Source: Kofleriaceae bacterium (GTDB lineage: Bacteria > Myxococcota_A > Polyangia > Haliangiales > Haliangiaceae). Taken from it: 64,000 nt of DNA. Position numbers and translations under genes: made by a program. Within the stretch, counting starts at the first letter, position 1, and each line of letters begins with the position of its first letter. Positions 51,035-53,745 of this stretch are shown here, one piece after another. The notes under the pieces were generated by a model. That model was not told the origin of the DNA, did no database searches, and saw only the letters and a list, made by a program, of their open reading frames with translations. Location of the stretch: contig JANTGM010000003.1 of assembly GCA_024762925.1 (NCBI GenBank), positions 1-64,000 on the forward strand. Direction: 5' to 3'.

Positions 51035-52264
51035 ATGAAGTGCATTGCAATTCTAGGCGCGGGAACTGCGGGAACCATGATGGCCAACCGCTTGGTTCGA
51101 AGGCTGCCAAGAGAGTGGAGAGTTGTGGTTCTGGACCAAGACGATGATCATGTCTATCAGCCGGGGCTCCTCCTTTTACCATTTGGCCAGTATCGAAAAG
51201 AGGAGCTTGTACGATCGCGAAAGCGCCTGGTGGATCCGCGAGTTGAGGTTCGACTCTGTGGGGTTGATCGAGTGGCGCCTGATGAGAAGCGGGTGTACCT
51301 GCAAGATGGCGAATCCCTCGCCTATGAGATTCTCATTGTGGCTACTGGCGCCGAGCTTCAGCCAGAGCAGACCTTGGGGCTGATGGGAGCAGGTTGGAAT
51401 GAGTCGGCGTTTGACTTCTACAGCCTGGAGGGAGCTTGCGGTTTGGCAAAGGCGCTCGAGTCATTTACTAGAGGTCGACTGGTCGTCAATCCGGTTGAGA
51501 TGCCGATCAAGTGCCCAGTTGCTCCTCTCGAGTTCTTGTTCTTGGCCGACGCGTACTTCACCGAGCGCGGCATTCGCGATCAGGTTGAGATTGTCTATGC
51601 CACACCGCTTGAAGGAGCGTTTACAAAGCCCGTAGCTTCGGCCTACCTGGGCAACATGCTGGCGGAGCGAAACATTACCGTCTTGGGTGACTTCGCGACA
51701 TCAGAAGTCGACGGCGAGAAAAACGTGCTTACGGCGTACGATGGTCGAGAAACAAACTACGACCTCTTGGTGAGCGTTCCTGTGCACGGCGGCTCGGCCC
51801 TGATCACTCGTTCGCAGATGGGTGATGCCAGTGGCTGGTTTCCTACGGACAAGCACACGCTCGCGTCGGCAAAGCTTGAGGGTGTCTTTGCGATAGGGGA
51901 TGCGACCGACGTTCCAGCGTCCAAGGCGGGCGCTGTGGCCCATTTCCAGTCCGATGTACTGGTTGCCAATATCCTGCGCTACATCGATGGGCGACCTCTT
52001 GAGCCGGCCTTTGATGGGCACTCGAACTGCTTCATCGAAACGGGGCATGGCAAGGCGATGTTGATCGACTTCAACTACGAGACTGAGCCGCTGCCGGGCA
52101 AGTACCCTCTTCCCGGCATTGGACCGTTTTCCCTCTTAGCGGAAAGCGCGATTAACCACTACGGCAAACTCGCCTTCAAATGGATCTACTGGAACCTCTT
52201 GGTTGCCGGTAAAGAGTTGCCACTAGATCACCGAATGCTAATGGCCGGCAAGCATGCTGCGTAA
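51035..52264 (+). CDS. Sulfide:quinone oxidoreductase-like flavoprotein
   Basis: A 409-residue FAD-dependent enzyme of the two-dinucleotide-binding-domain superfamily. The N-terminal FAD motif GAGTAG is at 8-13. SQR-type features are a Cys in MPIKCPVAPLEF (Cys 160), a second in NCFIETG (Cys 332) and Cys 135. A C-terminal amphipathic region (NHYGKLAFKWIYWN) is typical of monotopic membrane attachment. It should oxidise sulfide to polysulfide or thiolate-bound sulfur and pass electrons to quinone. The downstream DUF1641-DsrC fusion and DsrE-family genes support a sulfur role. The ATG at 51035 is chosen; an upstream frame to 50972 is not supported. Confidence 0.85.
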   Translation: MKCIAILGAGTAGTMMANRLVRRLPREWRVVVLDQDDDHVYQPGLLLLPFGQYRKEELVRSRKRLVDPRVEVRLCGVDRVAPDEKRVYLQDGESLAYEILIVATGAELQPEQTLGLMGAGWNESAFDFYSLEGACGLAKALESFTRGRLVVNPVEMPIKCPVAPLEFLFLADAYFTERGIRDQVEIVYATPLEGAFTKPVASAYLGNMLAERNITVLGDFATSEVDGEKNVLTAYDGRETNYDLLVSVPVHGGSALITRSQMGDASGWFPTDKHTLASAKLEGVFAIGDATDVPASKAGAVAHFQSDVLVANILRYIDGRPLEPAFDGHSNCFIETGHGKAMLIDFNYETEPLPGKYPLPGIGPFSLLAESAINHYGKLAFKWIYWNLLVAGKELPLDHRMLMAGKHAA

Positions 52265-52288: not shown

Positions 52289-53248
52289 ATGATGTCTCAA
52301 TCGGAATTGACAACACTCACCGACCAGGTAGCTGAGCTGACCAAGAGCGTCGACTACCTTGTGAAACGACAACAACAGCAAGAAGAGCTCTTTGAAGAGA
52401 TGATGCCAATTGCCAAATTGGCCTTGGACGCCTCTGTGACCAAGTTGGACGCACTTGAACGCGATGGCACGCTGGATTTCGTGCGTGAACTGGCGGGGAT
52501 TGGCGTGCGGGTTCGTGAGGGCTTCTCGCCAGCAGACGTTCGACAGCTGGGCGATGCCGTTGTCGGAATTCTCGACGCGGTCAAAGCGCTAACGCGACCG
52601 GAAGTCTTGAAGATCGCGCAGGATGCATCTGAGGCGCTGGAACATGCGGACGATGCCAAGCCGCTGGGGCTAATTGGTATGGTTCGTTCTACGAAAAACT
52701 CTGATGTGCAGCGCGGCATGGCCGTGATGATCGAGGTGCTAAAGCGCGTAGGGCACGGCGTCAACGCAATGGACGCCAAGCAGGGCGCAAGAGACGATAA
52801 GAAGAAGAGCCTTGCCCGCATGCTGGGACCAAGACGGAAGGCATTAGGCACCGAGCGCCGCATGCCACCTTCGCTTGTCTCGACTCCTCAGGCACCAAGG
52901 GCCGATACGTCGAGCCTGGGTGCGAGCTCAATCGTCGCAAAGACCTGTGTCACCATCGATGGTGTGGAGTTTTGCACCAATGGCGACATGGTAGATCCAG
53001 GAGCCTGGAATCGAGCCATCGCCTCGGCGATCGCCGTTGCCGAAGGTCTGGAGCTTGGGGACCGACACTGGATCTTGATTAATGCAGCACGTGACGAGTT
53101 TTTGGCGTCAGGAACGACTCCCAACATTCGGAGGCTCACGCTGATCACCGACATGACCACTCGCGACATCTACGGACTATTTCCCAAAGCACCAGGGCGC
53201 ACAATCGCGCGGATTGCTGGTTGCCCTAAACCCGCAGGCTGTCTCTAG
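52289..53248 (+). CDS. DUF1641 protein fused to a DsrC/TusE-like domain
   Basis: A 319-residue protein of two parts. The N-terminal half (1-170) is a DUF1641-type region: a coiled coil (LTDQVAELTKSVDYLVKRQ), LDALERDGTLDFVRELAG and LGLIGMVRSTKNSDVQRGM. The C-terminal 110 residues are a complete DsrC/TusE fold: VTIDGVEFCTNGDMVDPGAW, LGDRHWILINAARDEF, PNIRRLTLITDM and AGCPKPAGCL. The penultimate sulfur-carrying Cys (318) is kept. A second Cys lies at 312, six residues earlier, not at the usual DsrC position eleven residues before. DsrC-type proteins carry sulfur on this Cys. The gene follows the SQR-like gene by 24 bases. Confidence 0.88.
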   Translation: MMSQSELTTLTDQVAELTKSVDYLVKRQQQQEELFEEMMPIAKLALDASVTKLDALERDGTLDFVRELAGIGVRVREGFSPADVRQLGDAVVGILDAVKALTRPEVLKIAQDASEALEHADDAKPLGLIGMVRSTKNSDVQRGMAVMIEVLKRVGHGVNAMDAKQGARDDKKKSLARMLGPRRKALGTERRMPPSLVSTPQAPRADTSSLGASSIVAKTCVTIDGVEFCTNGDMVDPGAWNRAIASAIAVAEGLELGDRHWILINAARDEFLASGTTPNIRRLTLITDMTTRDIYGLFPKAPGRTIARIAGCPKPAGCL

Positions 53249-53268: not shown

Positions 53269-53745
53269 ATGGAAACTCAAAACCAATCCGCTCGAAAAGT
53301 CTCAATAATTTGCTCGAAAGCAGGTCTTGACGAGTGCTATCCCGCCCTTATTCTGGCGAACGCTGCGCGCCAATCAGGAATTGAAGCGATGGTCTTTTTC
53401 ACGTTCTGGGGCTTGGACGTGATTACCGAGAAGAAGGTCGATCATCTACATGTGAACATCGCAGGCAACCCCGCTAGTGGCATGCCGACAATCGTTGGGG
53501 GGCTTCCTGGAATGGAGAGTCTCGCTGCCAAGATGATGAAGAACAGCATGGAGAAACTCGATCTACCGACTGTGCGAGAGATGATCGAAATTCTCGAAGA
53601 AGCAGGCTGTGAACTCTATGGCTGCGAGCTGGCAATGCAGATGTTTAAGCGCGAGAAAGAAGAGCTTCTACCGCAGGTACATGAGGTCATTACTGCTGGT
53701 GACTTCTATGATCTCAGCGTAGGGGCTCAGATTATCTTCACATAA
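53269..53745 (+). CDS. DsrE/DsrF-like sulfur-relay protein
   Basis: A 158-residue protein of the DsrE-like (peroxiredoxin-like DsrE2) superfamily. Features are ALILANAARQSGIEAMVFFT, a glycine-rich GMPTIVGGLPGM, and the C-terminal EEAGCELYGCELAMQMF with Cys 114 and Cys 119. In TusBCD and DsrEFH this type of Cys carries persulfide. It lacks membrane segments and is soluble. It lies 20 bases after the DUF1641-DsrC fusion gene, so it is probably its partner and the last gene of this set. Confidence 0.88.
   Translation: METQNQSARKVSIICSKAGLDECYPALILANAARQSGIEAMVFFTFWGLDVITEKKVDHLHVNIAGNPASGMPTIVGGLPGMESLAAKMMKNSMEKLDLPTVREMIEILEEAGCELYGCELAMQMFKREKEELLPQVHEVITAGDFYDLSVGAQIIFT

Follow-up and report, generated by a model that had tools for sequence, protein, structure and literature searches.

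A single gene that joins a DUF1641 part to a DsrC/TusE domain lies in a sulfide-oxidation operon of myxobacteria and their relatives, an arrangement that suggests that sulfur from sulfide passes directly to a tethered carrier. We analyzed this gene in a 64,000-nucleotide stretch of Kofleriaceae DNA (the window), where it is flanked by genes for a type III sulfide:quinone oxidoreductase (SQR3) and a DsrE2-type sulfurtransferase. SQR3, DUF1641, DsrC and DsrE2 probably make up a self-contained module for sulfide oxidation in which the fusion protein is the tethered sulfur carrier, a reading to which we assign a probability of about 0.6. If it is correct, DsrC-like proteins would have a concrete job in organisms without Dsr genes, a protein acceptor would be named for an SQR, and the DUF1641 proteins found beside sulfide oxidoreductases would gain a testable role. 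With its four parts the module is small, and it is found in several phyla; it is thus open to expression and assay.

Two domains joined by a linker predicted to be flexible

The fusion gene (52289..53248, stop included) is a single uninterrupted open reading frame encoding 319 amino acids; like all features of the module described below, it lies on the forward strand. A previous sequence-only reading of the window had proposed that DUF1641 and DsrC are joined here in one frame, and both Pfam models indeed match the protein above their cut-offs: PF07849 (DUF1641) at residues 119-155 (nt 52643-52753; E 3.4e-11, 43 bits, cut-off 21) and PF04358 (DsrC) at residues 227-319 (E 5.9e-22, 78.6 bits, cut-off 24.9). 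The NCBIfam model TIGR03342 (dsrC_tusE_dsvC) likewise scores above its cut-off (57.5 bits, cut-off 53.5), and DsrC-type chains are the sole PDB matches that phmmer returns for the C-terminal part. The observation of a fusion is correct, far beyond chance.

We generated an AlphaFold2 model of the fusion protein, using 30 natural relatives as input. The N-terminal DUF1641 part (residues 1-180; 52289..52828) is predicted to be all-helical, and a Foldseek search of the PDB returned no convincing structure match for it. The DsrC/TusE domain (residues 220-319; 52946..53245) has a core modeled with a pLDDT of about 95-97. The first eight Foldseek PDB matches of the model are DsrC structures, with TM-scores by target of 0.72-0.82, and they are the only PDB matches with E < 0.001. 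The predicted structure of the C-terminal part thus resembles solved DsrC proteins, in line with the DsrC/TusE domain previously read in it. Between the two domains we located a linker predicted to be disordered (residues 186-217; 52844..52939), with a pLDDT below 50 at residues 186-192 and 201-217. The linker is rich in Ala and Pro across the family, these residues accounting for 23.5% and 14.7%, respectively, of the 46 linkers from fused loci. The low pTM of the model (0.37) suggests that there is no fixed packing between the two domains, with the putative DsrC carrier not packed on DUF1641.

The operon and its distribution

The sqr3 gene (51035..52264, 409 aa) is located upstream of the fusion gene with 24 bases between them, and the dsrE2-type gene (53269..53745, 158 aa) follows downstream after 20 bases. 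No terminator-like site was found in the stretch from sqr3 to dsrE2. SQR3 matches NF049943 over its full length (E 1e-176, 587.6 bits, cut-off 525); the fusion gene therefore directly adjoins a sulfide oxidoreductase gene, the neighborhood that the sequence-only reading had associated with DUF1641. NF049943 models a selenoprotein subtype of type III SQR, which the window enzyme resembles throughout, but the enzyme and its relatives have Cys where the selenoprotein subtype has Sec. SQR3 also aligns with human SQOR structures (E 2e-44): the cysteines at PIKC-PVAP and GHSNC are the counterparts of the two equivalent SQOR cysteines, and the pair is kept in relatives. By homology, SQR3 may thus act as a sulfide:quinone oxidoreductase with sulfide as its substrate. 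The DsrE2-type protein matches PF13686 (E 1e-31), is below the equivalog cut-off of NF047629 (E 1e-25, 90.8 bits versus 210), and carries a cysteine, Cys119, that is invariant in 39/39 relatives.

The window genome is 98% complete. A profile search finds one DsrC domain in it, and the fusion contains its only DUF1641. In this genome we found no match to TusA (PF01206), no match over threshold to PF02635 (TusBCD-type DsrE) and no recognizable DsrAB-type genes; the only NIR_SIR gene encodes a single 767-aa two-domain sulfite reductase of the assimilatory type. We thus consider a Dsr role as well as a TusE role in tRNA modification unlikely and rejected both, the former on account of the 767-aa protein and the latter because its TusA and TusBCD partners were not found. 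An ordinary TusE for tRNA 2-thiolation that was fused by chance would agree with membership in TIGR03342, which includes TusE, and with the one terminal Cys that TusE also has. It is however very improbable, given the lack of detectable TusA and PF02635 genes in a nearly complete genome, the constant presence of SQR3 in the operon, and a score of 48 against the PRK11508 TusE equivalog cut-off of 191. The genome further encodes eight rhodanese domains, which could serve as downstream sulfur acceptors. Elsewhere in the window, the reverse-strand segment 43645-45033 appears to encode three tandem FKBP-type repeats, as judged by eye from the translation.

Of the 379 genomes that we sampled from the host's phylum, 34, the window genome among them, carry single-frame fusions, and nearly all of these loci have the order sqr3, fusion, dsrE2. 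In the same sample, DUF1641 and dsrC are separate adjacent genes in two genomes (G028, G200), and one (G047) has sqr3-dsrC-dsrE2 without DUF1641. The two domains lie in different, overlapping frames in G292 (L066/L120), probably because of a frameshift in a fused gene, either real or an assembly error, and this locus was left out as evidence for separate genes.

We also scanned GTDB genomes with an alignment-based query, which yielded 246 relatives, from which 80 loci were kept; a single-sequence query on genome contigs gave no matches. These loci span Myxococcota, Chloroflexota, Actinomycetota, Spirochaetota, Acidobacteriota, Ignavibacteriota and Hydrogenedentota, and wherever the contig reaches, all 80 have the order sqr3-(DUF1641)-dsrC-dsrE2. 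Forty-five of them are fused; most of these come from Myxococcota and 'Deltaproteobacteria' MAGs. The Chloroflexota, Ignavibacteriota and Acidobacteriota loci contain all four domains as separate genes, and most loci from Actinomycetota, Spirochaetota and Hydrogenedentota have sqr3-dsrC-dsrE2 without DUF1641. The operon is thus broader than the fusion, and the loci without DUF1641 show that this domain is dispensable in some lineages. Viral contigs contained no relatives of the fusion, and plasmids gave only TusE matches of the enterobacterial type and no fusion. No further protein family is conserved beside the four domains in the wider loci: a candidate downstream gene was rejected, as most of its instances were ORFs in the wrong frame, the exception being one degenerate DsrC. 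The latter (L087:5874-6647) follows directly after dsrE2, lacks the terminal Cys and occurs at this one locus.

In a quick SQR3 tree, all 46 fused rows fall into a single group that requires one change (SH-aLRT 90), compared with about 24 changes when the fusion labels are shuffled. This grouping agrees with the fusion having arisen once and having since been transferred to some extent, possibly into the SZAS-1 and MAG_50 genomes. The fusion had been put forward as undescribed. This holds for the open-access papers searched, in which DUF1641 and DsrC never appear in the same paper, but dozens of public genomes carry the fusion. Likewise, none of the open-access titles retrieved for sulfide quinone oxidoreductase together with DsrC or DsrE2 describes the module, and we found no description of the sqr3-dsrC-dsrE2 link in that literature.

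A second type of fusion connects DsrC with SQR3 itself. In an Actinomycetaceae MAG (L144:3621-5351), DsrC is fused to the C terminus of SQR3 by a linker of about 70 residues, and three further Actinomycetaceae genomes have the same arrangement (four genomes in total; L144, L166-L169). At a distance of about 2 kb, those three genomes each contain another SQR-DsrC/DsrE2 pair, which is diverged. A model of a natural SQR3-DsrC protein has a pTM of 0.82 with 60 of 577 residues disordered, SQR alone making up 71% of the residues. A value this high despite a 60-residue disordered linker hints that DsrC has a preferred position on SQR, which probably adds to the pTM. The existence of both fusions means that DsrC is tethered to the SQR3 module in two ways, each next to DsrE2. 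Among our findings, the two fusion types leading into one module most strongly indicate that DsrC works with SQR3.

Cysteines of the DsrC domain and the linker

We compared the cysteine residues across the family. The penultimate residue Cys318 (CysA; 53240..53242), which corresponds to the sulfur-carrying position in the family alignment, is invariant in fused and separate members alike, and so is the GxPKPxGC tail that contains it. These features bear on a rival reading, in which the DsrC domain would serve SQR3 as a regulatory or structural subunit and not as a carrier, its persulfide state gating the enzyme or signaling sulfide. Fusion and operon establish association only, and the canonical second Cys of DsrC is missing in nearly all members, both of which would suit such a subunit. 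An invariant penultimate Cys within an invariant tail is, however, what would be expected of a sulfur-carrying arm, and DsrE2 is always kept where the contig reaches. We therefore regard a regulatory or structural subunit as improbable.

The sequence-only reading had further described a second cysteine relocated to position 312. In the window protein the residues are as described, with Cys318 penultimate, Cys312 (codon TGC, 53222..53224) six residues earlier, and Ala307 at the position of the second DsrC Cys. In the family alignment, Cys312 is private to the window genome: at position 312, 33/33 other fusions of the phylum have Leu, Ile, Val or Thr and 45/45 fused loci of the wider scan have Leu, Ile or Val, the two sets overlapping. 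The relocated cysteine is thus a peculiarity of the window genome and not a feature of the family, and we rejected it as a substitute for the second Cys. A new short redox pair of Cys312 and Cys318 that would replace CysB and CysA of DsrC could draw on the presence of both residues, six positions apart, in the window protein. It is refuted for the family and hardly credible otherwise, as Cys312 is absent from every other member examined, and this residue is accordingly placed outside the shared mechanism.

At the canonical second position, eleven residues before CysA, most members have Ala or Ser, and one fused lineage has Cys (G226, G119; L036, L037, L084). The second Cys of DsrC has been reported in organisms with DsrAB, its position being almost always occupied by Ala, Ser or Thr elsewhere (PMC3397948). 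The second-position residues of the family are thus those expected for DsrAB-free organisms.

Additional cysteines are found in the linker. Exactly one is present in 27 of 46 linkers (fused loci L072-L118), usually in a CAVP-like motif, and all 21 members of the window's subclade have a linker Cys; no DUF1641 domain of the fused set contains any Cys. The sole candidate in the window protein is Cys220 (52946..52948) at the boundary between linker and DsrC domain, about nine residues nearer to that domain, a possible counterpart of the CAVP-motif Cys of the subclade. Shared ancestry could explain part of this pattern.

A putative tethered carrier and known systems

We infer the following path of sulfur, including its direction and a docking role for DUF1641. 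SQR3 would oxidize sulfide, and its catalytic Cys pair would retain the resulting sulfane sulfur. Held by its long flexible linker, the DsrC domain would move its C-terminal arm to SQR3, where Cys318 would take up the sulfane sulfur as a persulfide. From there the sulfur may move to Cys119 of DsrE2 and on to cytoplasmic acceptors. By analogy to ForE, the DUF1641 part may dock the carrier at SQR3 and the quinone/membrane interface. A tethered relay had been suggested from the fusion, and the idea has been strengthened by the disordered linker, the operon with SQR3 and DsrE2, and the separate actinobacterial SQR3-DsrC fusion. More tentatively, and with somewhat less than even confidence, we propose that the module represents a Dsr-independent mode of sulfide handling, in which a tethered DsrC arm takes the place of glutathione, sulfite or polysulfide as the recipient of sulfane sulfur from SQR3, the fusions differ by lineage, and the linker Cys of the myxobacterial subclade acts as a second redox partner.

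Sulfur could also flow through the same module in reverse, with DsrE2 loading DsrC from cytoplasmic donors and DsrC passing the sulfur to SQR3 or acting as a persulfide buffer. SQR enzymes make sulfane sulfur and do not use it up, and the direct SQR3-DsrC fusions place the carrier at the sulfur source. The operon content is compatible with either direction. In A. vinosum, DsrC accepts sulfur from DsrE on its penultimate Cys, and transfer was seen from DsrEFH to DsrC and not in reverse (PMC3397948); our proposed transfer from DsrC to DsrE2 is opposite to this published direction, which favors the reverse flow. On balance, we consider the reverse flow unlikely, although less so than a regulatory subunit, and retain the transfer from SQR3 by way of the tethered DsrC domain to DsrE2.

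We compared this putative carrier with known systems. The lipoyl domains of 2-oxoacid dehydrogenases are swinging arms in which a carrier on an Ala/Pro-rich flexible linker serves the enzymes of one module. The DsrC arm may be analogous in its linker; fold and chemistry are unrelated, and we claim no homology.

ForE (YjgD/YrhD) is the DUF1641 subunit of the menaquinone-linked formate dehydrogenase ForCE from Bacillus subtilis; ForC depends on it to use menaquinone, and no transmembrane segment has been reported for it (PMC8808070). It shares with the fusion a DUF1641 motif and an operon with a quinone-linked oxidoreductase, the sequence relation consisting of the short Pfam motif only. As the match is short (37 residues), the ForE role carries over to the DUF1641 part of the fusion only weakly. 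In contrast to ForE, the DUF1641 part of the fusion bears a DsrC arm and has an SQR flavoprotein as its partner; it is through genomic association with SQR3 that this part becomes a candidate quinone-linking subunit.

DsrC from A. vinosum and Desulfovibrio and TusE from E. coli are alike in fold, conserved tail and penultimate sulfur-carrying Cys, and have a DsrE-type partner nearby, as in the window locus. Unlike the DsrC proteins, almost all members of our family lack the canonical second Cys, and the window genome is without detected DsrAB-type, TusBCD-type DsrE and TusA genes. The family is set apart from DsrC and TusE by being fused to DUF1641 or SQR3 and by being encoded together with SQR3.
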